Positions 11,780 through 27,117 of a DNA stretch of 28,076 bases are shown piece after piece. The notes below the pieces were generated by a model. That model was not told where the DNA came from and searched no databases. It saw only the letters and a program-made list of their open reading frames with translations. Origin of the DNA: Candidatus Zhuqueibacterota bacterium (GTDB lineage: Bacteria > BS750m-G25). Made by a program: the position numbers and the translations under genes. The stretch lies in NCBI GenBank assembly GCA_016783505.1, contig JADHWK010000033.1, forward strand, positions 1 to 28,076, written 5' to 3'. The number at the start of each line of letters is the position of its first letter. The first letter of the stretch is position 1.

Positions 11780-11819
11780 CGTAAAGTTTTTAGAGGAAAT
11801 CCCTTGTTGTGAAAGGTAT

Positions 11820-11881: not shown

Positions 11882-11890
11882 GGGAATATC

Positions 11891-13105: not shown

Positions 13106-13148
13106 AGAAATGACAGATTTGGAAAATATTTTCACTAAGTTTTAGATC

Positions 13149-14120
13149 ATGGGGATCAGGAATATCCTTTTGACAGGGTTGTTATTGTGGGTATCGCTGT
13201 CATTTGCCGATGATGTTCGGATAAAGGCCGAGCTAGAACCGGATACCGCGTTGGTGGGGGACTGGATTAGTTTCTCCCTTTTCATCGAACACGACCAAGG
13301 GATAAAGGTTGACCTGCCCCAGCTTCAGGGGCGGGTAGGGGATCTGGAGGTGATTAAGCCGGGGGAGTGGAAATCTAAAAAGTCAAAAGGGAGGATCATT
13401 GACCAAATGGCGACTACCTGTGCGGTATATGATACGGGCCATTTTGTCATTCCGGAAATACCTATCTTCTACCAAAAGGTCGGGGATACCACCCGGTACC
13501 AGATTAACAGTCAACCCCTTGGGGTTTTTATTGCCAGTGTGCTGGACTCCTCCGTCACCGATATTCTGGACATTAAGGGGCCGGTGGCCTTTCCCCGACC
13601 CTTGCGGGAGAAGCTGTTCTGGGCCATGATTTTTATGATCCCCCTGGCTCTGGGAGCGTTGGCTTACATCTATGTTAAAAGAAAGAAAGGGGGACCGAAA
13701 AAAATCCTGGCGGCGTCCCCCCCTTTAGTTCCCCCCCATGAGTGGGCTTATCAGGAATTGGAGAAATTAAAAGGGTCTTCCCTTCTCCTGCAGGGAAAGT
13801 TCAAAGCCTATTATTCCAGGGCTTCCGAAATCGTCTGCACCTATCTTGAAAGGCGTTATCCCATTCGGGCAGTGGAGATGACGTCAACCGAGCTTATTGA
13901 ATGGTTTTCACAATCCAAATTGTCCGACGGTATTTTAGAGATGGTGAGGAGCTTTCTGGAAAAGTGCGATCTGGTGAAATTTGCCAAGCATCGGCCCCTA
14001 TCCCAGGAAAACGAAGAGGTTCTCCTTCAGGCCTACCAGATTGTGGATAGAACCAAACTCGGGGTTGAAAAGTGCTGGGGAAATGAAACTCCCAAAAGAA
14101 AAAAACAATCTGAGCTTTAG
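13149..14120 (+). CDS. BatX: signal-peptide, single-TM protein of the Bat operon (BatD-like layout)
   Basis: A 323-aa protein. The signal peptide (MGIRNILLTGLLLWVSLSFA, about 1-20) leads to a beta-rich extracytoplasmic domain (about 21-150), one membrane helix (FWAMIFMIPLALGALAYIYV, about 157-177) and a cytoplasmic helical domain containing AYYSRASEIVCTYLERRYPI and STELIEWFSQSKLSD. This is the layout of the BatD C-terminal half, and such a gene commonly sits between DUF58 and BatA in these operons. It probably bridges periplasmic sensing and the cytoplasmic MoxR/VWA machinery (inferred). No clear ribosome-binding site precedes the ATG. I name it by position and layout, not by a recognised motif. 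Confidence 0.65.
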   Translation: MGIRNILLTGLLLWVSLSFADDVRIKAELEPDTALVGDWISFSLFIEHDQGIKVDLPQLQGRVGDLEVIKPGEWKSKKSKGRIIDQMATTCAVYDTGHFVIPEIPIFYQKVGDTTRYQINSQPLGVFIASVLDSSVTDILDIKGPVAFPRPLREKLFWAMIFMIPLALGALAYIYVKRKKGGPKKILAASPPLVPPHEWAYQELEKLKGSSLLLQGKFKAYYSRASEIVCTYLERRYPIRAVEMTSTELIEWFSQSKLSDGILEMVRSFLEKCDLVKFAKHRPLSQENEEVLLQAYQIVDRTKLGVEKCWGNETPKRKKQSEL

Positions 14121-14237
14121 AGGAGAGAAGCACAGATAGTAAAAAATATTCCGATAGTCCAACATTGCTCATATCAAGACATATTAACTAAATAATTAAT
14201 AGTAAATAACTTTTAATAATTTTTGAGGTATCAGAAA

Positions 14238-15341
14238 ATGGAAAATGTGGTGTATCTGTTGGGTGCCGGATTTTCTGCTCCTTTAGGGTTGCCCGTTATG
14301 GATAATTTCCTAGAAAAATCAAAAGATATGTATTTTGAAACACCTGATAAATTTAAACATTTCTTAAAGGTTTTTGATACGATAAAAGAAATGTCTATTA
14401 GTAAGAATTATTTTTCGACAGATTTGTTTAATATTGAAGAAATATTATCAATTCTTGAAATGAAAACTAGTCTTGGGGAAAATGGTTCAAGTCGCTTTTT
14501 TATTAAATATATCATTGATGTTATTAATCATTTTACTCCATCGATTGTACCACATAAAAATCCTTTAATTGGGAATTGGAATGAGCATATTTTTGGGGAT
14601 AAACCAATAGCAAACTACTATGGATATTTTGTATCCTCTTTATTAAATGCTCAAACTACTCGGAGAATAGTAGAAGATAATTATGGTAACAAATCCCCCA
14701 TTTATAAGTTATCAAAAGATAGCAATCACCAAGCAAAATATTCTGTTATTACTTTAAATTATGATTTAGTTATTGAAAATTATTGCAATTTTTTAAATCA
14801 AAATTTAGAATTTTGCAATGACATCAAATTTATAAAACCATACAATAATTTTAATGTCGAATCTTCTAAATTCCCAGTTATTGCAAAATTACATGGTAGT
14901 ATTGATACAGGGAAAATTATCCCCCCTACTTGGAACAAATTATTAAATAAGCGCGAGATAAAGGATGCTTGGAAAGCTGCACATAAGCTTTTAATTAAAG
15001 CAAACCATATTAGAATCATTGGTTATTCTCTTCCAACCACAGATTCTTATGTAAGATATCTTTTTAAATCTGCCATTATCTATTCACTTCATTTAAAAAA
15101 TATTGACGTGATTTGTTTGGATCACAATGGTGAAATAAAAAAACGATATGATGAATTCATCCAATTTAAAAATTATCGTTTTATTCCTGAAGACACCCTT
15201 AATTATCTAAAACAGAATTTTGAGCTAAACGAATCGTTTGAAAGACCCGACTCAAAAACGATGAAAGGATCTTTTAACAGATTGGAACAAGCTCATAATA
15301 GTTTTATGACCAGTTATATTTTATTACATCAATCTAATTAA
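14238..15341 (+). CDS. Stand-alone SIR2-like NADase/sirtuin-fold protein
   Basis: A 367-aa protein with the SIR2 Rossmann motifs in order: GAGFSAPLGLP (9-19) for NAD binding; TLNYD (172-176), equivalent to the TQNID motif; KLHGS (217-221) with the catalytic His at 219; and IIGYSLPTTD (260-269). The zinc-binding Cys pairs of true deacetylase sirtuins are not seen, so it belongs with SIR2-like proteins found in antiphage systems, several of which cleave NAD+. No partner domain is fused and no partner gene is adjacent. The frame is open from TTG 14223, but GAGG at 14225-14228 fits ATG 14238. The gene is far more AT-rich than the Bat genes around it and lies between batX and batA, both strong signs of transfer. 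Confidence 0.78.
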   Translation: MENVVYLLGAGFSAPLGLPVMDNFLEKSKDMYFETPDKFKHFLKVFDTIKEMSISKNYFSTDLFNIEEILSILEMKTSLGENGSSRFFIKYIIDVINHFTPSIVPHKNPLIGNWNEHIFGDKPIANYYGYFVSSLLNAQTTRRIVEDNYGNKSPIYKLSKDSNHQAKYSVITLNYDLVIENYCNFLNQNLEFCNDIKFIKPYNNFNVESSKFPVIAKLHGSIDTGKIIPPTWNKLLNKREIKDAWKAAHKLLIKANHIRIIGYSLPTTDSYVRYLFKSAIIYSLHLKNIDVICLDHNGEIKKRYDEFIQFKNYRFIPEDTLNYLKQNFELNESFERPDSKTMKGSFNRLEQAHNSFMTSYILLHQSN

Positions 15342-15490
15342 CACTTTGGAAATTATGAAAAAATAATAACCTGCACATGCACCGAACGCAACGTAGCACT
15401 ATTACTTAACAATTTTATTTCTCGTTTAACGATCACGCTGTTGATTGCCAAACGCTAATTAAACTGAATAACCATAAAAATCTATCAAAC

Positions 15491-16468
15491 ATGTTTGCCC
15501 ATCCCCAATTTTTTCTGCTGCTGTTGCTTGTTCCATTGATGGTCTTCTGGTACGTTAAGAAGCAGAAGAGAGCCCAGATTCAGTTTTCCACCATCAGCCT
15601 GCTGAAAGAGGTGGACAAAACCTCGTTGAAGAAATTCCGGCACATGCCGTTCATTTTCCGGTGTCTGGCGGTTGTTTTGATGGTCGTGGCCCTGGCCCGG
15701 CCCCAATCTACCAGTGAGACTAAGGAGGTGTTGACAGAAGGGATTGACATCATGCTGGCACTGGACATCTCCAGCTCCATGCTGGCCGAGGATTTTCAAC
15801 CGAAGAACCGGATCCAAGCGGCTAAGGAAGTAGCAGCAGAATTTATTGACGGCCGTATGAGCGATCGCATCGGGTTGGTGGCCTTTTCCGGGATGAGCTT
15901 TACCCAGTGCCCGTTAACCTTAGACTACGGGCTGTTGAAAAAACTCCTGAGCGAGATCGGGGTGGGCATGATCGAGGACGGCACCGCCATCGGGATGGCC
16001 ATCGCCAACGGGGTGAACCGGCTGCGGGATTTAAAGGCCAAGAGCAAGGTAATGATTCTGCTCACCGACGGCCAGAATAATCGGGGGGAACTGGATCCGG
16101 TCACCGCCGCTCAGACCGCTGCTGCCCTGGGCATTAAGGTCTATACCATTGGGGTGGGCAGTCGGGGGCAGGCGCCCTATCCGGTGGATACTCCATTTGG
16201 AAAACGCTATCAGATGGTCCCGGTGGACGTTGATGAGGACATGCTTAAGGAGGTAGCCAGGCTTACCGATGGCCGATACTTTCGGGCCACGAACGAAGAT
16301 AAACTAAGGGAGATTTATGGGGAGATTGATGAGCTGGAGAAGACTAAAATTAAGGTGAAGGAATATAGAAGATATGAAGAGCTTTTTTACGGCTATCTAT
16401 GGCTGGCACTGGCCTTTTTAACCACAGGGGTCGTTCTGGGGAACACCCGGTTCAGGAAGATTCCTTGA
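15491..16468 (+). CDS. batA: BatA: membrane-anchored VWA protein
   Basis: A 325-aa protein. Two N-terminal membrane helices (FFLLLLLVPLMVFWYV, 7-22; FIFRCLAVVLMVVALA, about 54-69) precede a VWA domain with an intact MIDAS: DISSS (92-96), Thr 165 in EDGTAIGMA and Asp 193 in LLTDGQNN. A last helix lies near the C-terminus (YGYLWLALAFLTTGVVLG). BatA and BatB are paralogous VWA proteins named for Bacteroides aerotolerance and thought to act with MoxR at the inner membrane. The VWA domain would face the cytoplasm. No Shine-Dalgarno is visible (the leader is A-rich), and the 149 bases after the SIR2 gene contain no clear promoter. Confidence 0.9.
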   Translation: MFAHPQFFLLLLLVPLMVFWYVKKQKRAQIQFSTISLLKEVDKTSLKKFRHMPFIFRCLAVVLMVVALARPQSTSETKEVLTEGIDIMLALDISSSMLAEDFQPKNRIQAAKEVAAEFIDGRMSDRIGLVAFSGMSFTQCPLTLDYGLLKKLLSEIGVGMIEDGTAIGMAIANGVNRLRDLKAKSKVMILLTDGQNNRGELDPVTAAQTAAALGIKVYTIGVGSRGQAPYPVDTPFGKRYQMVPVDVDEDMLKEVARLTDGRYFRATNEDKLREIYGEIDELEKTKIKVKEYRRYEELFYGYLWLALAFLTTGVVLGNTRFRKIP

Positions 16469-16495
16469 GTTAAATTCTTTAGTTTTTTCGGCTCT

Positions 16496-16648
16496 ATGTC
16501 GTTAAGTGTGGTATATTATGAGATATTTGAGGATATTTACCATGCAAAATCAAGAGAGAAACAAATTAAAGGCGGCTTAAGACAGAAAAAGATCAATCTG
16601 ATTAACAGTATGAACGGGAAATGGAAAGATATATACGACGAATTATGA
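16496..16648 (+). pseudogene. GIY-YIG nuclease remnant (C-terminal half)
   Basis: A 50-residue frame reads VVYYEIFEDIYHAKSREK, then QIKGGLRQKKINLINSM and ends KWKDIYDEL. This is the characteristic second half of small GIY-YIG endonucleases (YbaA/UPF0213-like). The N-terminal half with the GIY and YIG motifs and the catalytic Arg is absent, so it should be inactive even though it has an ATG. It lies in the batA-batB gap. Confidence 0.7.
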
Positions 16649-16667
16649 TCTATGTTTTAAACTAAAA

Positions 16668-16765
16668 AAAGATTGCTTCGGCCAAAAAACGGGCCTCGCA
16701 AAGACAAGCAAAAGAAACTGTCATTGCGAGGAATCCCGAGTATTCGGGATGACGAAGTAATCCTT
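16668..16765. repeat. 98-bp palindromic dispersed element, possibly the vapBC terminator
   Basis: Outer arms AAAGATTGCTTCG (16668-16680) and CGAAGTAATCCTT (16753-16765) pair at 11 of 13 positions. Inner arms CCTCGCAAAGACA (16694-16706) and TGTCATTGCGAGG (16719-16731) pair at 12 of 13. Each side carries its own small hairpin (GGCC/GGCC; CCCGA-GTAT-TCGGG). It resembles the ATTGCGAGG...GACGAAGCAATC repeats common in environmental genomes. Read on the minus strand the stem runs into seven T residues, so it could end the vapBC transcript. Confidence 0.6.
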
Positions 16766-16880
16766 AAAAGATAGTAGATGAACAAAAAAACATTGTGATG
16801 TATCATGAACGGAACTTTTTTCTTCTGCTTCATCCTTTTTGACAATTACCCATAGAAAACGACATAGACTCCTTCGTTCT

Positions 16881-17306
16881 TTATCGAGGGAATATCTCAA
16901 ACCCTAAAACGGAAAAATGATGATCAAAAGTGAAGGCTTTCCTGATCCTTAAATTTTGCATGAGGGCGAAGGAAGTTGCATCAGTGAACGAAAAATTGAT
17001 AGCCGAATATTGGCAAAAAATCTTCCAGGCAGAATCCCTCAATGCGGAATCAATAGCGTGTATTAGAATTACCGGGCTGGAAAAGAGGCTATCCCACAAT
17101 TTGATGGATGCCTCCAGTCCGACAGTATATCTCAGATGGGTGATGCTTTCGTCTATGATATAGTCGCTAGTATGATAGGTGACGGGTCTACCTTTGTAGG
17201 TTTTTAAAAACTGTGAAGCCCGCTGATGGTATTGATCATCCCTATCATAAAGTGCGATCCAGGCGGAGGAATCGACAAAGAAGCCTTCTTTTGCAAAGAC
17301 TTTCAT
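16881..17306 (-). CDS. vapC: VapC-type PIN-domain ribonuclease toxin
   Basis: A 141-aa PIN-domain protein. The acidic site is complete: Asp 12 in FFVDSSAWIALYD, Glu 53 in IIDESITHLRY, Asp 109 in SFTDATSFALM and Asp 128 in FTFDHHF. VapC toxins are Mg2+-dependent RNases that cut tRNA or rRNA and are neutralised by the partner antitoxin. Its start overlaps the stop of the upstream RHH antitoxin gene by four bases (17303-17306). The pair runs against the Bat operon between batA and batB. Confidence 0.88.
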   Translation of the reverse strand: MKVFAKEGFFVDSSAWIALYDRDDQYHQRASQFLKTYKGRPVTYHTSDYIIDESITHLRYTVGLEASIKLWDSLFSSPVILIHAIDSALRDSAWKIFCQYSAINFSFTDATSFALMQNLRIRKAFTFDHHFSVLGFEIFPR

Positions 17307-17572
17307 TTCTTTTTGGGAGCACCGTAGAGATAATGATCATGATTGATGGAACCGTCGGTGATCCCGGAGTTTGCCATTCCCACAATATTCCAGATGGGAT
17401 CGTCTTCAGCCAGGATGTGTTGCCCCTCTTTAGCGGAAATACCCAGGTATTCAGAAATGGCTTCACGGACGAGCTCAGCCATCTTTTTGTTAGTTTCCTT
17501 TGCTTTTTCTCTGAGCAGTCGGTGCTGAAGATGACCGAGGTAAATTTGGGTTCTTATAGGATACTCAGCCAT
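17303..17572 (-). CDS. vapB: Ribbon-helix-helix antitoxin of the VapC pair
   Basis: An 89-aa protein. The N-terminal half is a short beta strand and two helices (YPIRTQIYLGHLQHRLLREK, then NKKMAELVREAISEYLG), the CopG/MetJ ribbon-helix-helix DNA-binding fold. The C-terminal half is the toxin-binding tail (AEDDPIWNIVGM). Antitoxins of this type bind their own promoter as dimers. A 16-bp palindrome sits 14 bases upstream of the start, and a strong -35/-10 pair lies behind it. AGGGG a few bases before the ATG is the ribosome-binding site. The vapB name reflects role, not the AbrB-type fold of classical VapB. Confidence 0.8.
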   Translation of the reverse strand: MAEYPIRTQIYLGHLQHRLLREKAKETNKKMAELVREAISEYLGISAKEGQHILAEDDPIWNIVGMANSGITDGSINHDHYLYGAPKKK

Positions 17573-17585
17573 TTTACCCCTTTTT

Positions 17586-17601
17586 TAATGTATATACATT
17601 A
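17586..17601. promoter_or_regulatory. Palindromic operator of the toxin-antitoxin pair
   Basis: TAATGTATATACATTA is a perfect 16-bp palindrome between the -10 box and the antitoxin start, a typical site for antitoxin autorepression. Confidence 0.6.
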
Positions 17602-17602
17602 T

Positions 17603-17631
17603 AATATAATAAATAAATTTAATTTTGTCAA
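17603..17631 (-). promoter_or_regulatory. Promoter of the toxin-antitoxin pair
   Basis: On the minus strand: TTGACA (17626-17631), a 17-base spacer, then TATATT (17603-17608). It begins only 16 bases before the batB start codon on the other strand. Confidence 0.7.
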
Positions 17632-17646
17632 GTAAAAATTCGTTCT

Positions 17647-18678
17647 ATGATCCGTTTTGCCCATATTGAATATCTCCATCTTTTATGGGGAATCCCGATA
17701 TTATTCTTTTTCTTTCTGTATGTATTTAAAAGGAAGAAAAAGGATGTGAATGTCTTTGGAAACCCGGAATTAGTGGCCAAACTGGCCCCCAACGCCAGCC
17801 GGAGGCGATTCGTATTGAAGGCAATGCTAATATTAGCCGGACTGTTTTTTATCATCATCGCCCTGGCCAATCCCCAGGTGGGGACCAAACTGGAGGAGGT
17901 GAAGCGGGAAGGGATTGATGTTGTAGCGGCCTTAGATGTTTCCCTGTCCATGATGGCAGAGGACATCGCTCCTAACCGGCTGATGAAGGCCAGGCACCAA
18001 ATTGCTCACTTAATCAGCCTACTGGAAGGGGATCGCATTGGACTTATCGCCTTTGCCGGGGCCGGGTTTGTCCAGAGCCCATTGACACTGGATTATGGGG
18101 CGGCCCTCATGTTTCTGGACGCTATGGATGTTCAGACCGTTCCCCGCAAGGGAACAGCCATCGCCGAGGCCATCGGGGCGGCGGCTAAGTCCTTTATTCA
18201 GAGGGAAAAAAAACACAAGGTGCTGGTGCTGTTTACCGATGGGGAGGATCACGGGGAGGATGTTTTGAAGGCCGCCGAAAGGGCGGGGGAGGAAGGAATC
18301 GTCATCTATACCCTTGGGGTGGGCTCACCCCAAGGGGTTCCCATCCCCCTGTTTGGCAAAGCCGGAAATCGGGTGGGATTCAAAAAGGACAAAAACGGTG
18401 AAGTGGTGCTGACAAGGTTAAATGAGTGGGGCCTTCAGCAAATTGCTCTCCAAACGGGGGGAAAATATTTTCGTGCCAGCCCAGGCGAAGGTGAGATCGA
18501 AGAGATCTATCGGGAGATTGGCGGTATGGGAAAGAAAGAACTGGGGGCCAAGCAGTATACCCAATTTGAGGACCGTTTCCAGATTTTTCTGGTCATAGGA
18601 TTAGCACTTCTCGTCACGGAATTCTTTATCAGCGAGGGGAGACGGACGAAAATAAATAAACCATCTGCAATTATTTAG
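17647..18678 (+). CDS. batB: BatB: membrane-anchored VWA protein
   Basis: A 343-aa paralogue of BatA. Membrane helices lie at about 11-27 (LLWGIPILFFFFLYVF) and 56-74 (VLKAMLILAGLFFIIIALA). The VWA domain has an intact MIDAS: DVSLS (97-101), Thr 170 in RKGTAIAEA and Asp 198 in LFTDGEDH. A C-terminal helix (IFLVIGLALLVTEFF) follows. Compared with BatA it has an extra GNRVGFKKDKNGEV segment. It is expected to work with BatA and MoxR at the inner membrane. No Shine-Dalgarno is seen before the ATG, and the vapBC promoter on the other strand occupies the upstream DNA, so batB transcription must read through from batA or start inside that promoter region. Confidence 0.9.
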   Translation: MIRFAHIEYLHLLWGIPILFFFFLYVFKRKKKDVNVFGNPELVAKLAPNASRRRFVLKAMLILAGLFFIIIALANPQVGTKLEEVKREGIDVVAALDVSLSMMAEDIAPNRLMKARHQIAHLISLLEGDRIGLIAFAGAGFVQSPLTLDYGAALMFLDAMDVQTVPRKGTAIAEAIGAAAKSFIQREKKHKVLVLFTDGEDHGEDVLKAAERAGEEGIVIYTLGVGSPQGVPIPLFGKAGNRVGFKKDKNGEVVLTRLNEWGLQQIALQTGGKYFRASPGEGEIEEIYREIGGMGKKELGAKQYTQFEDRFQIFLVIGLALLVTEFFISEGRRTKINKPSAII

Positions 18679-18733
18679 CCTTATCGAGTTGATAAAGAAG
18701 TGAAATGTGCCAGCAGGGAAGAGCAGGAGTGCA

Positions 18734-18773
18734 GGGGAGCAGGGGAGCAGAGGGGCAGAGGGGAGGGGGAGGG
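18734..18773 (+). other. G-run tract with G-quadruplex potential
   Basis: Six runs of three to five G (18734-18737, 18742-18745, 18752-18755, 18760-18763, 18765-18769, 18771-18773) are separated by loops of 1-6 bases such as AGCA and CAGA. It lies on the coding strand 56 bases after batB. This fits the canonical four-G-run pattern several times over. Confidence 0.55.
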
Positions 18774-18790
18774 AGTAATGGAATGTTGTC

Positions 18791-18859
18791 CCCCTGGGAG
18801 CGTAGCCTCCTACCCTAGCCGGGCACGGCGGACCGGGCAGGCAAGACCTGTAGGGGAAT
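18791..18859 (+). repeat. 56-bp exact repeat, copy 2, with a 15-bp end module
   Basis: 18791-18846 is identical to 12842-12897. The overlapping end module GACCTGTAGGGGAAT (18845-18859) occurs inverted at 13068-13082. Confidence 0.85.
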
Positions 18860-18897
18860 TTTGGTAACAGTTCACCACTAAATCCTATTTCTGAATC

Positions 18898-19006
18898 CTT
18901 TTGCCTTTCTCAAAGTCCCCCTTTTAAATAAGGGAGGAATCGAAATAGAGCCAAATCTAAAGATTATCATATTCGTTTTTCTTTTTGACTTGTCACGAAG
19001 TGACCA
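18898..19006. other. Repeat-like DNA and small hairpins before batC
   Basis: TCCCCCTT TTAAAT AAGGGAGGA near 18917-18940 is a weak palindrome of a common intergenic type, and GTCAC-GAA-GTGAC is a 5-bp hairpin near 18994-19006. The 357-base gap between batB and batC therefore holds the G-run tract, the 56-mer and these small palindromes. No gene is visible. Confidence 0.35.
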
Positions 19007-19035
19007 CTCACCCTGAAAGTAGGGAAGGTTATTAA

Positions 19036-19779
19036 ATGGTTATAAATCATTACCATAAGTTTCTTTTCCTGTTAATTACAGGGTCCCTATTAATTCTATC
19101 GTTCCCTTCAGAGTTATGTGGAGAATCGGGCACTGCTAAGGTTAAAAAGGGGAACAAATTCTATAATGAAGGTAAATACGATCGGGCCCAGGTGAAGTAT
19201 ATGGAAGCCCTACAAGAACATCCGGAGGCCCCGGAGATTCATTTCAATCTGGGGGATAACTACTATAAAAAGGAAAATTTTGAAAAATCCCAACAGGAAT
19301 TTCAAAGTTCCCTTTCGACTCAAAAGGATGAATTAAAGACCCGTTCGTATTATAACCTGGGGAACGTCTTATTCAAAGGGCGGAAGATCCCCGAGAGCAT
19401 CGAAGCCTATAAGAATGCCCTGAGGATAAGACCGGATTTCAGGGAGGCGAAGACTAATCTGGAGCTGGCCAAACTGATGCTTAAGCAACAGCAGCAGCCA
19501 CAGGAGCAAAGGGGTCAGGAAGAGCAGTCTAAAGAGCAGAAGCAGGATCAGGAACAACAGCAGGAAGGGAAACAGGAGCAGCAACCGCCAGGACCCAAAG
19601 AAAAGGAATTTGATGAGCGGCAGGAACCGACCCAGCAACGTCGGCTAAAGCCCAAAGAAGGGATGACAGAGGAGGATGCCAAGAAAATTCTGGATGCGTT
19701 GAAGCATGACGAAAAGGAGCTTCTGAGACAGATACGTCGGATGAAGATTAAGGAGGGGATGGTGGATAAGGACTGGTGA
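19036..19779 (+). CDS. batC: BatC: TPR protein with a Q/E-rich tail
   Basis: A 247-aa protein. An N-terminal hydrophobic signal (FLFLLITGSLLILSF, about 9-23) is followed by three TPR units: GNKFYNEGKYDRAQVKYMEAL, then HFNLGDNYYKKENFEKSQQEF, then YYNLGNVLFKGRKIPESIEAY. Residues about 150-200 are a low-complexity Q/E/K stretch, and the C-terminus is a short charged helix (MTEEDAKKILDALKHDEKELL). This matches BatC, a periplasmic TPR scaffold in the Bat complex. GGGAAGG about eight bases before the ATG is a good ribosome-binding site. Batwise the next gene should be batD, but a transposase is inserted first. Confidence 0.82.
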   Translation: MVINHYHKFLFLLITGSLLILSFPSELCGESGTAKVKKGNKFYNEGKYDRAQVKYMEALQEHPEAPEIHFNLGDNYYKKENFEKSQQEFQSSLSTQKDELKTRSYYNLGNVLFKGRKIPESIEAYKNALRIRPDFREAKTNLELAKLMLKQQQQPQEQRGQEEQSKEQKQDQEQQQEGKQEQQPPGPKEKEFDERQEPTQQRRLKPKEGMTEEDAKKILDALKHDEKELLRQIRRMKIKEGMVDKDW

Positions 19780-19815
19780 TGGGTTTTTATTCCAATTCAA
19801 AAATTCTTTTATTAG

Positions 19816-19875
19816 CCCACGAATTTATTCGTGGGTATTAAAAGCATATTAAAACATTTAACCGTTTTAACGGTT
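19816..19875. repeat. Bipartite REP unit upstream of the transposase
   Basis: A 20-bp palindrome (19816-19835), 24 bases, then AACCGTT-TT-AACGGTT (19860-19875). With one T-T mismatch the second stem extends to CATT/AATG. The unit is repeated in the opposite orientation at 10204-10265. Confidence 0.65.
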
Positions 19876-19895
19876 TAATGTGGGAGGGTTTTTTG

Positions 19896-20357
19896 ATGTC
19901 CCATTCTTTAACCAAATTGTGGGTTCATGCCATCTGGGGCACGAAGGATCGAATACCATTGCTTAAAGACCCATTTAGATCCAAGATCATACATCATATT
20001 CAAGACAAGTTAGAGGAACTTGATTGTGGTGTTCGTATAATTAACGGGACGGCGGATCATTTTCATGCACTATTTCTATTATGTAATGATAAATCCCTTG
20101 CTGAAGTGATGAAAATGATTAAAGGCGAATCTTCACATTGGATCAATCAGCAAGACATTATCAGTCGTAAATTTGCTTGGCAGGTAGGTTATGGTGGTTT
20201 TTCAGTAAGCGAATCTATGGTAAAGCAAGTTGAGGATTATATTCGTAAGCAAGAAGAGCATCATCGGAAGATGACATTTCAAGAAGAATATGATCGTTTT
20301 CTTAAACAATATGGGTTATCAGAAAAACCGATGAATCGGTTAAATGAATTCTTTTGA
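19896..20357 (+). CDS. REP-associated tyrosine transposase (Y1, IS200-like)
   Basis: A protein of 153 aa from ATG 19896. The HUH motif is H55-F56-H57 in NGTADHFHALFLL, and the catalytic Tyr is Y115 in QVEDYIRKQEEHH. The N-terminus SLTKLWVHAIWGTKDR is typical of the family. Such enzymes nick single-stranded hairpin DNA at palindromes and can mobilise REP sequences. GGGAGGG at 19882-19888 supports this start over the ATG at 19878. All key residues are present, so it may be active. The matching palindromes sit directly at both ends. Confidence 0.88.
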   Translation: MSHSLTKLWVHAIWGTKDRIPLLKDPFRSKIIHHIQDKLEELDCGVRIINGTADHFHALFLLCNDKSLAEVMKMIKGESSHWINQQDIISRKFAWQVGYGGFSVSESMVKQVEDYIRKQEEHHRKMTFQEEYDRFLKQYGLSEKPMNRLNEFF

Positions 20358-20367
20358 GCTATTTTTA

Positions 20368-20387
20368 CCCACGATTAAAATCGTGGG
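20368..20387. repeat. REP-like 20-bp palindrome downstream of the transposase
   Basis: CCCACGATT-AA-AATCGTGGG: the same 9-2-9 format as 19816-19835 and 10246-10265. Confidence 0.7.
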
Positions 20388-20449
20388 TTACTTATGGCTT
20401 TCAGCACCTTGCAACAATGTCATAAATATATTTTTGGAATATTAGTTTG

Positions 20450-22330
20450 ATGATAAAAAAATATGTGCTGATCTTTCTTCTTTTGTCTATTCCATTAAGC
20501 CTTGGGGCTCAGGAGCTGCAATTTACCGCCCGGGTCAATCCCCAGGCCCTGGCGGAAGACCAGATCCTGGAGGTGATCTTTGAACTGTCCGGAAGTGGAA
20601 TTTCGTCGCTGCCGCGGCCCAGGCTTCCTGACTTCCCTGACTTTATCATCATTTCTGGCCCCAATCAGTCAACCAGTTATGAATTCATCAACGGGAGCAT
20701 GTCCCTTTCCAAGACCTACGGCTATACCCTGATGCCCAAACGGGCCGGTTCGTTCAAAATAGGGTCGGCGGAAGTTCGGTATAAAGGCAAGGATTATCGC
20801 ACCGATCCTGTTCTCATTTTAGTATCTAAAGGCGGGATGGCCGCCCGGAAGGTCCGTCCTTCGGATCGGGAGAAGAAAAAAATTCAACCCGGGCTCGATA
20901 TTTTTCTCAGGGCGGCGTTGGATAAGGTGAAAGCCTATCAAAATGAGATGATAGTTTTGACATATAAGATTTATACCGGCGTGAGAATATCCAGTTATGG
21001 TGTTCAGGAATTGCCCAGGACCACCGGTTTTTGGGTTGAGGAGTTTGAATTGCCCAAGCAGCCCCCCTTGAAGGATGAGGTGGTGAACGGTCAGCACTAC
21101 CGAGCCGCGGTCATCAAGAAACTAGCCCTTTTCCCCACCAGTCCCGGCAAATTAACCATTGACCCTATGGTAGTGGAGTGCGAAGTTCAGGCGCAGAGAA
21201 GACGCCGGGCCTACGATCCCTTCGACCTTGACTCTTTCTTCGATGATTCTTTTTTATTCGGCCGCACCGTCAAAAAGGTCCTTAAATCCAATCCCCTCAC
21301 CCTGGAAGTAATCCCATTGCCCCCAGAAAATCAGCCGCCGGGATTTGGCGGGACGGTGGGGGAGTTTAATCTATCGGTCAGGGTGGATAAAGAAAAAGTC
21401 AAAACCAATGAGGCGATCACCTTGACCGTCACCTTAGCCGGCAGGGGGAATATCAAGACCCTTCCCGAGCCCGTCCTTTCGCTCTCGCCCGATTTTGAAC
21501 GGTATGAGCCCAAAATTTCCGAGGTGATCAACCGCAAAGGGTCCCAGATTTCCGGGAAAAAGACCTTTGAATATGTTTTAATCCCCCGGCACCCGGGGGA
21601 ACAGGTCATTCAACCGATTTCCTTTTCCTTCTTCAACCCAGCAAAAAAACGGTATGTTACCCAGCAAAGCGGCCGGTTCATCATCCAGGTTGAAAAGGGC
21701 CCCGAAGCCCCGGGTCCGTTAGTAGCCGGTCTGACCAAGGAGGAGGTTAAACTGGTGGGACAGGACATCCGGTTCATCAAGAAGCGGGTCAAGGGTTTTA
21801 AAAAACAGGGAAGTTTTCCCTATCAGGGATTTGTCTTCACCTTTTTAATCATTTTTCCCCTGTTCGTCTTGGGGGGGACAGTATTTTACCGGAGTAGGCA
21901 GGACCGGCTGGGACAAAACGCAGCCTTAGCCCGTTTTGAAAGGGCTTATCCTACCGTTCAAAAGGCGCTGAAGCGGGTTGCCAGGTTGCAGTCTGCGGAC
22001 CGGGCTAAAGAATTCTATGGGGACCTGTCCGGTGCCCTGATGGGTTATTTTGGGGATAAATTGAATAAATCAGCGGTCGGATTTTCGGTCGAAGAGCTGG
22101 AAAAAATCCTGACTGAGAAGGGGATTGATGATAATCTGGTCCAACGGACGAAGAAGATTTTGACCCACTGCGACTACGCCCGCTTTGCCCCCGGTGAAGT
22201 TCAGCTTGAGCAACTTGAATCAGTTCTAAAAAAAAGCCAGGGAATCATTAAATCTTTAGAAAAAACCTTGGTATTTAGCTTATTAACTAATAATCTTATA
22301 ATCTTGGTGTCTTCGTGTCTTTGTGGCTGA
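20450..22330 (+). CDS. batD: BatD: oxygen-tolerance family membrane protein
   Basis: A protein of about 626 aa. A signal peptide (KKYVLIFLLLSIPLSLGAQ) leads to a long beta-sandwich region with repeated motifs (FTARVNPQALAEDQILEV near the start; FNLSVRVDKEKVKTNEAITL near 305), the usual BatD extracytoplasmic domain. One membrane helix follows at about 459-480 (FVFTFLIIFPLFVLGGTVFY), then a cytoplasmic helical domain (ALKRVARLQSADRAKEFYGD). The TTG at 20447 is in frame, but ATG 20450 is the better start. The final stretch after SLEKT (LVFSLLTNNLIILVSSCLCG) looks unlike the rest of the domain and is partly encoded by a repeat-like segment that also contains the batE start. It probably scaffolds the periplasmic side of the Bat complex. 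Confidence 0.85.
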   Translation: MIKKYVLIFLLLSIPLSLGAQELQFTARVNPQALAEDQILEVIFELSGSGISSLPRPRLPDFPDFIIISGPNQSTSYEFINGSMSLSKTYGYTLMPKRAGSFKIGSAEVRYKGKDYRTDPVLILVSKGGMAARKVRPSDREKKKIQPGLDIFLRAALDKVKAYQNEMIVLTYKIYTGVRISSYGVQELPRTTGFWVEEFELPKQPPLKDEVVNGQHYRAAVIKKLALFPTSPGKLTIDPMVVECEVQAQRRRRAYDPFDLDSFFDDSFLFGRTVKKVLKSNPLTLEVIPLPPENQPPGFGGTVGEFNLSVRVDKEKVKTNEAITLTVTLAGRGNIKTLPEPVLSLSPDFERYEPKISEVINRKGSQISGKKTFEYVLIPRHPGEQVIQPISFSFFNPAKKRYVTQQSGRFIIQVEKGPEAPGPLVAGLTKEEVKLVGQDIRFIKKRVKGFKKQGSFPYQGFVFTFLIIFPLFVLGGTVFYRSRQDRLGQNAALARFERAYPTVQKALKRVARLQSADRAKEFYGDLSGALMGYFGDKLNKSAVGFSVEELEKILTEKGIDDNLVQRTKKILTHCDYARFAPGEVQLEQLESVLKKSQGIIKSLEKTLVFSLLTNNLIILVSSCLCG

Positions 22331-22339
22331 ACCGTTACA
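22303..22339 (+). repeat. Repeat-like segment at the batD/batE junction
   Basis: CTTGGTGTCTTCGTGTCTTT followed by GTGGCTGAACC resembles CTTTGTGTCTTTGTGG-type intergenic repeats that I recall from environmental genomes. Only one copy is in the window, so this rests on recall plus its out-of-place translation. Confidence 0.3.
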
Positions 22340-23109
22340 GTTTTTTTTACGTATCAACGATTATTCTTTTGGGACCGATCTGTTGGATGGGAGGACATCG
22401 TGCCTTTGGGGATCCATTCGCTAGCCTGTTCGAAGAGGGAAACCACCTCTATGAAGCGGGGGAGTATGAGGAAGCCATTTCAAAATATGAATTGATATTA
22501 GAGGGAGGCTATGAAAACGGGACGCTGTACTATAATCTGGGTAATGCCCATTATAAGCTGAATCACATCGCACCGGCCATCTTTTACTATGAGAAGGCAG
22601 CCCGGCTGATGCCCAGGGAGCCCGACGTGAAGATTAATCTGAAGTTGGCTAATTTGAGGGTCATTGACAAAATTACCCCGAGGCCGCGGCTGGTGATCTG
22701 GGATTGGTTCGACTCCTTTCGGGGGCTGTTTTCCTTGGGTCTGCTGACCGGGCTGGTACTGGGTTTATATCTAATTCTGATAATTGGGCTCATAGTCTAC
22801 GTCTGGTTTCGGAAGGTAAGGTTAAGAAGGATGATCCTCTATGGAATGGGACCGACCGCTTTTTTGCTTCTACTCTTTTTGGGCCTGTTCCTCCTTCGGA
22901 TTCATGAAATTAAAAAGCTACGGGAGGGGATTATTTTTTCGCCAATGGTTGAGGTGCGTAGCGCCCCGGGTGAGGGAGAAACAGAACTTTTCCTCCTCCA
23001 TGAGGGGGTAAAGGCCAAGATTAGAAATAGGGTGGGGGATTGGGTTGAGATTGAACTGGCGGACGGCAAGGTGGGATGGGTGGGCTGTGAATCCCTGCGG
23101 GAGATTTAG
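22315..23109 (+). CDS. batE: BatE: TPR protein with two membrane helices and an SH3b-like end
   Basis: A 264-aa protein. A hydrophobic N-terminus (FFYVSTIILLGPICWM) is followed by TPR units (EEGNHLYEAGEYEEAISKYEL, then LYYNLGNAHYKLNHIAPAIF). Two membrane helices lie at about 138-164 and 176-194. The last 60 residues form a bacterial SH3-like domain (MVEVRSAPGEGETELFLLHEG, then GDWVEIELADGKVGWV). This is the standard BatE layout and closes the operon. The GTG start at 22315 overlaps batD by 16 bases; a TTG at 22321 is an alternative, and both fall in repeat-like sequence. The first 10 or so residues are therefore uncertain. Confidence 0.83.
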   Translation: MSLWLNRYSFFYVSTIILLGPICWMGGHRAFGDPFASLFEEGNHLYEAGEYEEAISKYELILEGGYENGTLYYNLGNAHYKLNHIAPAIFYYEKAARLMPREPDVKINLKLANLRVIDKITPRPRLVIWDWFDSFRGLFSLGLLTGLVLGLYLILIIGLIVYVWFRKVRLRRMILYGMGPTAFLLLLFLGLFLLRIHEIKKLREGIIFSPMVEVRSAPGEGETELFLLHEGVKAKIRNRVGDWVEIELADGKVGWVGCESLREI

Positions 23110-23116
23110 GTCGGCC

Positions 23117-23284
23117 TTAAATCCATTTTTGCATTAATTCATTAATACATCGACCCCTTTTTAAGAGGGCCTTTTTTTCTTCGAGTTCCTCCCGTGTGGC
23201 CTGTGTATAGATCCCTGTAGAGGCAAGAGAGGCGTGCCCTAAAAGTTTTTGAATAAGATGCGATAAATGTTGCTGTTTGGGCAT
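23117..23284 (-). pseudogene. Tyrosine recombinase C-terminal remnant
   Basis: Read on the minus strand, about 55 residues include LIQKLLGHASLASTGIYTQA. This is the box-II end of XerC/D-like or phage integrases: LLGHAS, with the HxxxT...Y pattern and the tyrosine nucleophile. The catalytic Arg and the rest of the fold are missing, so it cannot be active. It marks the left edge of the AT-rich island. Confidence 0.75.
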
Positions 23285-23336
23285 GCGATTAAATATATTA
23301 AAGAAATTGCCCATAATAATAAATGTTAAAAAAAGC

Positions 23337-23365
23337 TTGACTTTTTCCGAATGAAAGTTTAAATT
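23337..23365 (+). promoter_or_regulatory. Candidate promoter of the Ntn-hydrolase cassette
   Basis: TTGACT at 23337-23342, a 17-base spacer, and TAAATT at 23360-23365 in AT-rich DNA, about 30 bases before the first gene of the cassette. Confidence 0.4.
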
Positions 23366-23396
23366 ATAGAAAACTATTTTGAGGTAGAGTATACAG

Positions 23397-24263
23397 ATGA
23401 GTTTAGTAATTTCCATGATAGTCCCTGACGGGATAGTAGTAGCTACGGATAGCCTTTCTCTATCACAAAATATTCTTGAGTTTGTTGCTCAGAATGTTGA
23501 AACGGAATGTCCTCATTGTAGGAAGAAGATCGGAGCACAGGAACTTAGATTGCCTCCTATTCCTATTCCGTTTTCAGCATCGTCTTACACCCAGAAACTC
23601 TTTTCCTTAAAAAATAAATTTGCCCTGGGTTCCTTTGGTCTAGGCATTTTAAACAACCAGAGCATACATTATCATGTTAGGCAGTTTGAACGCATATATA
23701 ATAAGTCTGAGGATTTGTTATCAATCAGGAATGCATTTATCAAATATATAGAGAAAGAGTTGCTTGTCCAATTTCCTGAATACAGGGAAAAGGCACCCGA
23801 AGATTGGCATCCAATTGGGTTTCATCTAAATGGGTACGAAAGATCAGATGGAAAACCAGCTGCGAAGCTGACCGGAGTAACCCATGAAGTTTATATTGGA
23901 CGCAAGAATATTGTTCGTAAAAGGGATAATATAGGCTGCACGATTGGCGGTGATATGAGAGTTGTCCGAAAATTGTGGGAAATTGGAAAAGAGGATCCAA
24001 GACTAAAATTTAAATATAGATTGTTCTCGCTTCAAGATGCAATAGATTTGAGTGAATCTTTAATCGGTATCACAAGCACTATTCAAAGATTTGCTAACGA
24101 GGTTCCATCGGTGGGCGGAGAAATAGATATCGCACTCGTAACTCCGTTTAATGATTTTCAGTGGATAAAGCGAAAGAAACTTATGGAAATACTGGAGGAA
24201 CTAAAAGGTTTTCAGTCGATGAAGCAAAAGAATTTTTTAGAAACAGGGAAGGAATCAAAATGA
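23397..24263 (+). CDS. Proteasome/HslV-like Ntn-hydrolase-fold protein with a CxxC insertion
   Basis: A 288-aa protein. The start MSLVISMIVPDGIVVATDSL matches the first strands of proteasome-type peptidases, whose motif is DGVVLAADSR. Asp 18 would be the conserved acid. Met removal would expose Ser 2 as the N-terminal nucleophile, and Lys 67 in TQKLFSL would play the Lys33 role. Between the Asp and the Lys is an insertion of about 45 residues with CPHC (38-41), a possible metal knuckle. LGSFGLG resembles the family GxxG strand. HslV itself is shorter and starts with Thr, so this is a divergent member; substrate unknown. GAGG at 23381-23384 precedes the ATG. The stop overlaps the next start (ATGA), so three genes form one coupled unit. 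Confidence 0.6.
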   Translation: MSLVISMIVPDGIVVATDSLSLSQNILEFVAQNVETECPHCRKKIGAQELRLPPIPIPFSASSYTQKLFSLKNKFALGSFGLGILNNQSIHYHVRQFERIYNKSEDLLSIRNAFIKYIEKELLVQFPEYREKAPEDWHPIGFHLNGYERSDGKPAAKLTGVTHEVYIGRKNIVRKRDNIGCTIGGDMRVVRKLWEIGKEDPRLKFKYRLFSLQDAIDLSESLIGITSTIQRFANEVPSVGGEIDIALVTPFNDFQWIKRKKLMEILEELKGFQSMKQKNFLETGKESK

Positions 24264-24457
24264 ATACAAGAATGTATACCGAAGAAGAAGTAGCTTCTGG
24301 TTACCCACCAGTTATTGTTTTAGTTAATCCCGACCCGGGAACCTATTATCCAGGAGTAGATTGTAGAACCGACACCAATGACACAACTCCTGAAATCATT
24401 TTCGACGATATTATGCGAAAATATCATAGTGCATGGGAAAAACTGGCCAAATTGTAA
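24260..24457 (+). CDS. 65-aa protein between the Ntn hydrolase and Doc, candidate antitoxin or adaptor
   Basis: A small acidic protein (MNTRMYTEEEVASGYPPVIV at the start, ending HSAWEKLAKL). I do not recognise a family; no Phd/YefM pattern is visible. It overlaps the previous stop by four bases and the Doc start by 25 bases, so it is translated in a strict coupled order. GGGAAGG at about 24246-24252 is a plausible ribosome-binding site. Because it precedes a Doc-type toxin, an antitoxin role is possible, but it could equally be an adaptor or substrate of the Ntn hydrolase. Neither is shown by the sequence. Confidence 0.6.
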   Translation: MNTRMYTEEEVASGYPPVIVLVNPDPGTYYPGVDCRTDTNDTTPEIIFDDIMRKYHSAWEKLAKL

Positions 24458-24849
24458 AATATTTGAGTTTTCAGGAAATTGTAGAAAGGAATCGAAGAAT
24501 TGTTCTAGAAACTGGTGGCTTCGTAGAAGGTGCCGGTAAATTGAGCAATCCCAACAGCCTTGAGTATCTTGTTAATATAGTACAGGAGAAAATTAACGAT
24601 AAAGAACTTTATCCCTCCTTGGTCGAGAAAGCAGCGGTATATGTATTTAATATAATTACAAGACATATTTTTATCGATGGCAATAAACGCACAGGGATGA
24701 TTTGTGCATTTTGGTTCTTACGACTTAATGGATGTATCGTTTCTGAATCGATTTCTGAAAACGAGATTGTCAAAATTGCGCTTGATATTGCTAATAGAAC
24801 AATAGATCTTCCCGAAATAATTATTTGGCTTCAAGAAAGGTTGGAATAA
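24433..24849 (+). CDS. doc: Doc (death-on-curing) family Fic-fold toxin
   Basis: A 138-aa protein with the Fic/Doc core HIFIDGNKRTG (78-88), where His 78 is catalytic and NKR is the Doc-type variant of the nucleotide-binding loop. The N-terminus VKYLSFQEIVERNRRIVLETGG is typical of Doc. Doc enzymes phosphorylate EF-Tu and stop translation; related Fic enzymes AMPylate targets. The usual partner is a Phd antitoxin, which is absent here; the 65-aa gene takes its place. The ATG at 24433 gives a 25-base overlap with that gene; TTG 24463 would start the protein nearer the usual N-terminus. A terminator follows at once. Confidence 0.88.
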   Translation: MGKTGQIVKYLSFQEIVERNRRIVLETGGFVEGAGKLSNPNSLEYLVNIVQEKINDKELYPSLVEKAAVYVFNIITRHIFIDGNKRTGMICAFWFLRLNGCIVSESISENEIVKIALDIANRTIDLPEIIIWLQERLE

Positions 24850-24865
24850 AAATACTTAATGAATC

Positions 24866-24891
24866 AAACCCCCGCTTTGGCGGGGTTTTTT
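24866..24891 (+). terminator. Rho-independent terminator after doc
   Basis: CCCCGC / GCGGGG with loop TTTG, flanked by AAA and T6. Confidence 0.85.
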
Positions 24892-24921
24892 GTTTAACAG
24901 TCAATATTATCTAAAAAAACC

Positions 24922-24950
24922 TTGACACTAAAACCTTAATTTTGTATCTT
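24922..24950 (+). promoter_or_regulatory. Sigma-70-type promoter upstream of the recombinase remnant
   Basis: TTGACA at 24922-24927, a 17-base spacer, TATCTT at 24945-24950: identical boxes and spacing to the promoter at 2331. It would drive a leader of about 260 nt before the gene at 25217. Confidence 0.6.
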
Positions 24951-24966
24951 ATAAACAATTCATTTA

Positions 24967-25035
24967 GAGGCAAGAACGACTGAAATTTACACCCACGTGG
25001 GCCGTAAGCAGATTCGCATATCGCCAGAACAATAA
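24967..25035 (+). pseudogene. Second tyrosine recombinase C-terminal remnant
   Basis: The frame reads EARTTEIYTHVGRKQIRISPEQ-stop. TTEIYTHV is the tyrosine-nucleophile segment of integron and phage integrases, so only the last 20 or so residues survive. It points away from the Doc cassette, as does the remnant at 23117-23284 on the other strand. Confidence 0.7.
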
Positions 25036-25036
25036 C

Positions 25037-25070
25037 CGCACTTTTTCATAATTCAGTGAGAAAAGGTGCG
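25037..25070. other. 11-bp hairpin after the recombinase remnant
   Basis: CGCACTTTTTC / GAAAAGGTGCG pairs fully with one G-T wobble around a 12-nt loop. It could be an mRNA structure in the leader or a recombination-site relic. Beyond it the leader to 25216 holds only the weak promoter at 25164 and the short AGATAT/ATATCT hairpin near 25132. Confidence 0.45.
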
Positions 25071-25163
25071 TCTACTTGCTAGTAAAATGAAATCGATTAA
25101 TAACATAAAGAAATAATATCAAATTACTTAAGATATGGAGTATATCTAAAAGGTTCCGAAACT

Positions 25164-25216: not shown

Positions 25217-25558
25217 ATGGTGTCTTCGAACAGTAAGGATGCTAATTTGGGTAATAGTAAAGAAGGCGAAAGAATAAGTACAAGCAAAGTTGCATACAGT
25301 GACCCACAAATGGTCGAAATATCTTTATATGAAATAAAAAATTTCTTAATAACTGAGACCATCGCGAAGGTAATAATACTTGTTGGTTCTCTTTTTATTG
25401 GAGGCATCTTATCTGCGGTTTTTTCGAAGATTCCTGTCCATCGAATTATAATTATAGCTTCCTGTGCAATATTATTTTTCGGAATTATCCTTGATGTATA
25501 TTTGATAAAAACTAAACTTAGTGAATTGGAACGAAAAGGGGCTAGAAAATGGAAATAA
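25217..25558 (+). CDS. Small two-helix membrane protein
   Basis: A 113-aa protein I do not recognise. A polar N-terminal 45 residues lead to two membrane helices, about 51-69 (KVIILVGSLFIGGILSAVF) and 76-97 (RIIIIASCAILFFGIILDV), and a short basic tail (KLSELERKGARKWK). Both ends would lie on the same side, by the positive-inside rule the cytoplasm. GGAG at 25205-25208 is a good ribosome-binding site. It overlaps the TPR gene by ten bases, so the two are probably translated together and may form one membrane complex. Confidence 0.65.
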   Translation: MVSSNSKDANLGNSKEGERISTSKVAYSDPQMVEISLYEIKNFLITETIAKVIILVGSLFIGGILSAVFSKIPVHRIIIIASCAILFFGIILDVYLIKTKLSELERKGARKWK

Positions 25559-27117
25559 CGGGGACGTTAGCAGTACTCATTGGCGCTATTCTTGGTTTCA
25601 TAATTTCAATTTTTGTGCTTCGTTATTTTGAGAAGAATAGAAAGCAAAAAACCATAATTGATAATTTAATTAATGAAGGTATGGATTATTATTCTTCATC
25701 ATTGGAAGTTCTAGATAAAGAGGAAAATCTCAACAAAGCAATCCAAACCTATGAAGAGGCTTTAAAAATCAGAACTATTGAGAAATACCCTCTTGACTAT
25801 GCGATGACACAAAATAATCTTGGAAATGCCTGCGCTACTCTTTCAGAGGTTCGTAATAAAGAGAAGAACCTGCTCAAAGCAATCCGAGCTTATGAAGAGG
25901 CTCTGAAAATATACACTGTTGAGAAATACTCTGTTGATTATGCAATGACACAGAATAATCTTGGAAATGCCTACAGGGCTCTTTCAGTAGTTCGAGATAA
26001 GGGGGAGAACTTAGCCAAAGCAATCCGAGCATTTGAAGAGGCTTTAAAAATCAGAACTGTTGAGAAATACCCTCTTGACTATGCGATGACACAAAATAAT
26101 CTTGGAACTGCCTACGGCACTTTTTCAGAGGTTCGAGATAAGGAAGGGAACTTAACCAAAGCAATCCGAACATTTGAAGAAGCCCTGAAAATATACACTG
26201 TTGAGAAATACCCTGTTGATTATGCAATGATACAGAATAATCTTGGAAATGCATATAGGACTCTAGCAGAAGTACGAGACAAGGCGAAGATCATGACCAA
26301 AGCAATCCGAGCCTATGAAGAGGCTTTGAAAATATACACTATCGAGAGATACCCTCTTGACTATGCGATGACACAAAATAACCTTGGAAATGCCTATGGT
26401 ACTCTTTCAGAGGTCTTAGATAAAGAGGGAAACCTGATCAAATCAATACGAGCTTACAAAGAAGCTTTAAATATTAAAACTGTTGAGAAATATCCTGTCG
26501 ACTATGCAATGATACAAAATAACCTTGGGATTGCCTACGGCGCTCTTTCGGGGATTCGAGACAAGGAGGAGAACTTGGCCAAAGCAATCCGAGCATTTGA
26601 AGAGGCTCTGAAAATATGTACTATTGAGAGATACCCTGTTTACTATGCGATGACCCAGAATAATCTTGGAAATGCCTACAGGATTTTTTTAGAGGTTCGA
26701 GATAAGGAGGAGAACTTGACCAAAGCAATCCGAGCATTTAAAGAGGCTTTAAAAATCAGAACTATTGAGAAATACCCTCTTGACTATGCGATGACCCAGA
26801 ATAATCTTGGAAATGCCTACAGGATTTTTTCAGAGGTTCGAGATAAGGAGGGGAACTTGGCCAAAGCAATCCATGCATTTAAAGAGGCTTTAAAAATCAG
26901 AACTATTGAGAAATACCCTCTTGACTATGCGATGACACAGACTAATCTTGGAAGTGCTTATAGTACTTTTTCAGAGATTAGCGATAAGGTGGAGAACCTC
27001 ACCAAGGCAATCCGAGCATTTGAAGAGGCTCTAAAAATATACTCTATTGATAAATATCCCCAATATTATAAAATAATATTGTCCAATCTGGAGAGATCAA
27101 AACAGAGTATGGGTTAA
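25549..27117 (+). CDS. Membrane-anchored TPR protein with nine 47-residue repeats
   Basis: A 522-aa protein. One membrane helix (about 7-25, LAVLIGAILGFIISIFVL) is followed by a partial first unit and nine full units of 47 residues covering 82-504. The consensus is YAMTQNNLGNAYRTLSEVRD followed by KEENLTKAIRAFEEALKI. Units of this kind (TQNNLG) occur in TPR regions of signalling and effector proteins such as CHAT-protease and STAND proteins. No effector domain is fused here; the protein ends 18 residues after the last unit. It would present a superhelical binding surface at the membrane, probably on the cytoplasmic side with the small protein encoded upstream. Ligand unknown. Codon use is AT-rich like the Doc cassette, unlike dnaK or the Bat genes. 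Confidence 0.85.
   Translation: MEITGTLAVLIGAILGFIISIFVLRYFEKNRKQKTIIDNLINEGMDYYSSSLEVLDKEENLNKAIQTYEEALKIRTIEKYPLDYAMTQNNLGNACATLSEVRNKEKNLLKAIRAYEEALKIYTVEKYSVDYAMTQNNLGNAYRALSVVRDKGENLAKAIRAFEEALKIRTVEKYPLDYAMTQNNLGTAYGTFSEVRDKEGNLTKAIRTFEEALKIYTVEKYPVDYAMIQNNLGNAYRTLAEVRDKAKIMTKAIRAYEEALKIYTIERYPLDYAMTQNNLGNAYGTLSEVLDKEGNLIKSIRAYKEALNIKTVEKYPVDYAMIQNNLGIAYGALSGIRDKEENLAKAIRAFEEALKICTIERYPVYYAMTQNNLGNAYRIFLEVRDKEENLTKAIRAFKEALKIRTIEKYPLDYAMTQNNLGNAYRIFSEVRDKEGNLAKAIHAFKEALKIRTIEKYPLDYAMTQTNLGSAYSTFSEISDKVENLTKAIRAFEEALKIYSIDKYPQYYKIILSNLERSKQSMG
25792..27060 (+). repeat. Nine tandem 141-bp coding repeats
   Basis: Nine in-frame units of 141 bases encode the 47-residue TPR-like repeats. Units 7 and 8 are nearly identical at the DNA level (from about 26643 to 26920), while others have drifted. 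Confidence 0.9.

Follow-up and report, generated by a model that had tools for sequence, protein, structure and literature searches.

A proteasome-like peptidase gene coupled to a Doc toxin and its putative antitoxin: an apparent three-gene toxin–antitoxin system of new composition

Introduction

The removal of type II antitoxins is generally attributed to housekeeping proteases, and its trigger has long been argued over. A module encoding a peptidase of its own would, if truly working as such, make the antitoxin-removal step directly testable.

Among described modules, Phd-Doc and AbrB-Doc combine a Doc toxin carrying the HxFx(D/N)xNKR motif with a small upstream gene that overlaps or abuts doc and whose product ends in a Doc-binding helix. 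Proteases have been placed within toxin–antitoxin operons before: Makarova et al. (2009) predicted three-component toxin–antitoxin systems with a COG2856 (ImmA-like) Zn-protease (PMC2701414), in which the operon's own protease, a HEXXH zincin with an Xre-type partner, is predicted to act on PIN or RelE modules by cleaving their antitoxin or repressor; a term search of the main text of that paper found no mention of proteasome or Ntn. In TAC modules (PMC5105189), a third gene likewise controls the fate of the antitoxin, its product being an antitoxin-protecting chaperone. On the enzyme side, Fuchs, Alva and Lupas (2021) described 22 new families of proteasome homologues with a beta-like core, the residues Thr1/Ser1-Asp17-Lys33, no N-terminal propeptide and no identified AAA+ partner, and reported no genomic context suggesting a specific function (PMC8665760).

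Here, we analyzed a 28,076-nucleotide stretch of DNA (the window, contig C32 of a genome ~60% complete) in which a gene for an Ntn-hydrolase precedes a small gene and doc. The locus resembles Phd-Doc and AbrB-Doc modules in its Doc motif, gene overlap and Doc-binding-type C-terminal helix but differs in that its antitoxin lacks a recognised Phd or AbrB DNA-binding front and an Ntn gene is coupled upstream. The COG2856 systems are a precedent for its logic but not for its parts: the enzyme of the window operon is of Ntn fold, unrelated to their protease, and an Xre gene is lacking; unlike the TAC chaperone, the additional protein is a predicted peptidase. Of the known enzymes closest to it, HslV, Anbu and 20S beta subunits, the comparison was with 20S beta: the enzyme shares its fold and catalytic residues, yet it carries large insertions, is only ~10–15% identical to 20S beta, has no unfoldase gene in its operon and is linked to a toxin–antitoxin pair. 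Such coupling to toxin–antitoxin modules also sets the Ntn subset studied here apart from the homologues of the 2021 survey, and it offers a functional clue for uncharacterised proteasome homologues, for which that survey had no informative gene context (PMC8665760). Overall, the trio has the appearance of a toxin–antitoxin system not described before, with a candidate trigger protease of its own; judging from its genes, it is probably a type II variant new in composition. A previous sequence-only reading of the window knew of no such system, and the literature searched yielded none with this make-up.

Results and discussion

The three genes are co-directional, with a 4-base overlap (ATGA) between the first two and a 25-base overlap between the last two (Table 1), and the ORF calls agree with the sequence-only reading on both places and overlaps. 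A Shine-Dalgarno-like GGAAGG lies ahead of the second start. The candidate promoter and strong terminator proposed to delimit the unit were both recovered, although promoter-like sites as a class were not significantly above shuffles in the consensus scan; the promoter-like stretch has an 84% identical counterpart on contig C59 of this genome, where it lies ahead of a different gene.

Table 1 Features of the Ntn–Doc locus and its surroundings (window positions unless a contig is given).
Feature	Position	Strand	Basis or remark
Ntn-hydrolase, proteasome beta-like peptidase, 288 aa	23397..24263	+	ORF, model, fold match
65-aa antitoxin gene (putative)	24260..24457	+	Orthologues L096/L097, tail profile, AlphaFold helices
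Doc toxin, 138 aa, Fic/Doc family	24433..24849	+	Pfam, TIGR01550, nearest structure 9vzc
Promoter-like TTGACT-17-TAAATT	23337..23365	+	Consensus scan
Intrinsic terminator, GC-rich hairpin CCCCGCTTTGGCGGGG + TTTTTT	24870..24885	+	Sequence scan
Tyrosine-recombinase C-terminal remnant (LLGHASLASTGIYTQ...)	23117..23270	-	Pfam 0.0017 (below cut-off), XerC 1.7e-5
Tyrosine-recombinase C-terminal remnant, about 24 aa, TTEIYTHV...TTEIYTHVGRKQIRISPEQ, then stop	24961..25035	+	Read from sequence; too short for family test
Boundary pieces, window	23177-23367, 24882-24950		
Boundary pieces, C59	C59:19831-19910, 21138-21206, 23525-23604 (L005)		
23S rRNA IVP gene	11429		Interrupts Bat-type operon
SIR2_2 gene	14223		Interrupts Bat-type operon
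PIN gene	16881	-	Interrupts Bat-type operon
IS200-like Y1 transposase gene	19878-20357		Interrupts Bat-type operon

Neither the Ntn nor the 65-aa protein matched a Pfam or NCBIfam family; the Pfam Proteasome model (PF00227) left the window enzyme unmatched and reached only 1 of 13 relatives, at 0.0027. The enzyme is too divergent for that model, and the fold test overrides the Pfam negative: its predicted structure (pLDDT 81.6, pTM 0.76) aligned to 20S beta5 over 183 residues with Z 19.2 and rmsd 2.7, with model residue 2 on Thr1 (VIA-align), and Foldseek also assigned a proteasome beta-subunit fold (2.9e-8). The fold-search lists were filled by 20S subunits, and the absence of HslV and Anbu there is uninformative. 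Ser2, which would become Ser1 upon removal of Met1, is the predicted nucleophile, and Asp18 and Lys67 are the counterparts of Asp17 and Lys33, both invariant in a 13-member set of relatives. Across the family, Ser or Thr directly follows Met in all 59 rows with a clear start. Profile matches of the N-terminus were weak only (peptidase 5lox, E 1.6; 20S beta, E 0.16), the protein carries a CPHC knuckle insert, and the operon contains no AAA+ gene. On model and residue comparison, the proteasome-like peptidase named in the sequence-only reading is borne out, with a Ser1/Asp17/Lys33 triad by correspondence and a predicted activity.

The toxin has an intact HIFIDGNKRTG motif and scores above the cut-offs of both family models (Pfam Fic: 9.7e-13, 49.2 bits, cut-off 24; TIGR01550: 4.8e-16, 59 bits, cut-off 38.65). 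The nearest solved structure is E. faecalis Doc (9vzc, 6.6e-12). The motif corresponds to HxFx(D/N)xNKR with the Doc-type lysine, and an AMPylator reading was set aside on this Doc-type NKR.

The 65-aa protein, previously deemed unrecognised, can be recognised as a Doc antitoxin from its C-terminal tail. AlphaFold gave confident helices at residues 44–54 and 56–64 and low confidence for residues 1–40, whose predicted disorder rests on a shallow alignment with pLDDT of about 50–55; W59 and L62 lie in these C-terminal helices (44–64), which are of the Doc-binding type. In the E. faecalis Phd-Doc structure (PDB 9VZC), the toxin is bound mainly via Phd residues 65–79 (PMC13034048). We built a tail profile from 21 antitoxin tails of Docs without Ntn, i.e., excluding all Ntn loci: among 1931 ORFs, it ranked the small protein of the Zixibacteria locus first (E 4.5e-5) and the window 65-aa protein second (E 0.0034), and all 11 small proteins of the trio loci described below beat their own shuffles (p <= 0.0042). 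The published E. faecalis Phd C-peptide SKQKHNELYKELVT also fits the profile (p 0.0037). The tie to E. faecalis Phd is based on this peptide and the shuffle test; the profile did not match Phd among PDB sequences, nor did a PDB sequence search match the small protein to Phd.

Ahead of the tail, the ten trio small proteins aligned have little in common and their fronts vary; a putative (I/V)PV motif common to the fronts was noted by eye. Docs found independently of Ntn likewise have upstream antitoxins with the same tail on differing fronts, i.e., AbrB-like (by eye) or GIY-YIG-like and DUF5678-like (just under Pfam cut-offs), from which we suggest that the tail is a portable Doc-neutralising element. 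Individual loci (L222:2767-3162, L191, L193) carry it on GIY-YIG-like, DUF5678-like and apparently TPR-like fronts. The PhdYeFM N-terminal DNA-binding fold was not matched in any of ten trio small proteins, so the usual Phd is indeed missing, as the earlier reading had remarked; the absence is, however, normal for Doc modules, because many Docs pair with other antitoxins bearing the same tail. Together, the tail and the predicted helices make the 65-aa protein very probably a Doc antitoxin without a recognised DNA-binding front. When it was searched against 386 genomes, only weak matches were returned, in loci where phmmer found no Doc or Ntn relative, because the antitoxin front diverges too fast for such a search.

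Since Docs with this kind of antitoxin exist without Ntn in other genomes, it is unlikely that the enzyme is a maturase, ligase or antitoxin guardian which helps to neutralise Doc rather than release it. Precedents for such a role are connectase, a proteasome homologue acting as a specific ligase (PMC8665760), and the TAC third gene, which protects the antitoxin (PMC5105189); a ligase recognition motif was not seen here.

Next, we evaluated how often the three genes occur together. A profile scan of genome contigs with a three-member Ntn alignment yielded 71 Ntn relatives, and phmmer with the window Doc against all ORFs of these loci gave nine clear matches (next E 0.09), each immediately following Ntn in the same orientation. 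We counted just 37 comparable Docs across 386 genomes; against this low frequency, adjacency in 9 of 71 loci is far above chance. A search for the 65-aa protein, Ntn and Doc together, suggested in the sequence-only reading, thus recovered the same gene order in ten other loci, nine genomes and one IMG/VR viral contig: L096 (Zixibacteria), L097 (unclassified bacterium), L098 (Armatimonadota), L145 (labelled Deltaproteobacteria), L154 (Desulforudis), L157 (Anaerolineae), L159 (Dehalococcoidia), L160 (Thorarchaeota), L164 (Chloroflexia) and L221 (viral contig), spanning Zixibacteria, Armatimonadota, Chloroflexota, Bacillota, Myxococcota and Thorarchaeota. A viral-contig scan with a second-clade Ntn alignment gave two matches, L221 and again the L154 contig, which is itself in IMG/VR. 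No match came from viral scans that used the window Ntn or 65-aa protein as query, nor from tblastn of two Ntn proteins against plasmids and phages.

A gene of about 63–87 codons always lies between Ntn and Doc in the trio loci, and the 65-aa frame, whose lack of conservation had been named beforehand as refuting the idea, has orthologues in L096 and L097 and counterparts in the others. The 25-base overlap recurs in six loci besides the window (L096, L097, L154, L157, L160 and, by eye, L164); in these, the Doc start (ATG, GTG or TTG) shares bases with the TGG that encodes the antitoxin's conserved Trp. L098 and L145 have a 4-base overlap. Ten of the 11 trio loci show the Doc motif clearly (L159 has HHMVDGNKR); Doc is frameshifted in L164 and has no clear start in L159. 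The Thorarchaeota Ntn is 70% identical to its Anaerolineae sister on the tree, which indicates either recent inter-domain horizontal transfer or a binning error. Overall, we consider it highly probable that Ntn, antitoxin and Doc form a three-gene toxin–antitoxin system with a Doc antitoxin.

The tightness of this link nevertheless depends on the part of the family considered. Doc is absent from 62 of the 71 Ntn loci and from all 12 other Ntn-matching genomes among 400 sampled from the G391 phylum; since most relatives lack Doc, the enzyme has other jobs as well. An Ntn gene found mostly without Doc, which the earlier reading would have counted against a system, is therefore what we see family-wide (Doc in 9 of 71), but not in the two trio clades. 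A 66-protein Ntn tree places Doc in two regions with good support, one with the window, L096 and L097 (L098 nearby), the other a clade with Doc in 7 of 10 rows, and the Doc label requires 4 changes vs. a shuffled mean of 10.4. Distances of Ntn, antitoxin and Doc are correlated (Mantel r 0.53–0.57, p <= 4e-4), a signal stemming partly from two deep clades. Doc linkage thus belongs, by sequence, to two Ntn clades and not to the family as a whole.

These data bear on the reading that the genes are cassette neighbours without a joint mechanism, i.e., a normal antitoxin–Doc pair and an unrelated Ntn under one promoter. The mostly toxin-less family and the patchy, recombinase-flanked surroundings of the window copy speak for it, yet order and overlaps are kept in distant phyla, the trio occupies two supported tree regions, divergence is correlated, and related enzymes are followed by PIN or ParE in exchange for Doc; we regard it as unlikely. 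As to the exchange, in five Poribacteria loci (L099, L101, L102, L104, L109) a related Ntn precedes an overlapping or abutting 147–170-aa gene and a PIN toxin (Pfam test on L099). In L223:2165-3489 (minus), from the G391 phylum sample, the genes for Ntn, a 90-aa antitoxin-like protein and a ParE toxin overlap one after another. Related Ntn enzymes, as judged from these genes, precede at least three toxin types, Doc, PIN and ParE. A HEPN toxin suspected by eye behind the L144 Ntn was not confirmed by Pfam.

Alternatively, Ntn may be toxic in its own right, alongside Doc, with the small protein acting as a double-headed inhibitor that blocks the peptidase through its front and Doc through its tail, such that its loss would free both. 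The constant tail and variable fronts would suit this, as would the small gene that also follows toxin-less Ntn genes (L089, L161, L100/L103/L105/L106), as expected for an Ntn partner or inhibitor. However, stand-alone Ntn genes without a convincing small gene (Caldisericota, Chloroflexota) argue that the enzyme is not generally toxic, and no shared front-domain motif was established, which makes a double-headed inhibitor quite improbable.

We give about an even chance to a type II module with a built-in protease, in which Doc is freed as the dedicated peptidase breaks down its antitoxin. The 65-aa antitoxin would bind Doc by its C-terminal helix and keep it silent, while Ntn, encoded first and translationally coupled, would shed Met, expose Ser1 and act as a proteasome-like peptidase. 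Upon a signal, likely phage attack because restriction-modification genes adjoin, Ntn would degrade or clip the unstructured antitoxin, whose front would suit a proteasome-like core without unfoldase. The freed Doc would then stop translation, by analogy with P1 Doc phosphorylating EF-Tu. A broader view, which we hold tentatively and at slightly less than even, is that of a new toxin–antitoxin class: a proteasome homologue without an AAA+ partner in its operon would be the on-switch, degrading an antitoxin in which an unstructured segment replaces the DNA-binding half, with related enzymes joined to Doc, PIN or ParE, probably for phage defence.

Restriction-modification enzymes are encoded upstream of the trio in L154, L164 and L221, and L097 has a gene for a CAP12 TIR effector downstream of it; these neighbours point to defence islands as the probable setting. 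Type I restriction-modification genes also appear to adjoin the Poribacterial Ntn modules L009/L109 and L099. Four Verrucomicrobial Ntn genes (L100, L103, L105, L106) are followed by a conserved 67–71-aa gene (MSYAYIQGQEAEALSYFE...) and no toxin.

Both flanks of the trio hold the outward-pointing recombinase C-terminal remnants noted in the sequence-only reading, the right one about 24 aa long. On C59, boundary pieces match those of the trio (84–96% identical before, 86% after); the cargo between them is a 276-aa trypsin-like protein (by eye), adjoined by a methyltransferase-like gene, and a remnant 85% identical to the left one lies further along the contig. Like boundaries around different cargo suggest cassette or cargo exchange within the host genome, and the remnants appear to be a feature of this genome, incidental to trio function. 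An integron attC reading of the flanks found no support.

A short imperfect hairpin repeat at 25031-25083 (GCACTTTTTC...GAGAAAAGGTGC), with 83–84% identical copies at C87:23554-23597 and C35:9398-9443, is possibly a REP-like element, given the IS200-like Y1 transposase gene in the window. The cassette comes right after an apparent Bat-type operon (10317-23109; MoxR-like ATPase, von Willebrand-type proteins, BatD, TPR) broken by small mobile- or defence-type genes (Table 1). On its other side (25217-27117) lie genes for a 113-aa protein with apparent membrane segments and then a 522-aa TPR protein with near-identical TPR_12 repeats and a TPR-S match (5e-8).
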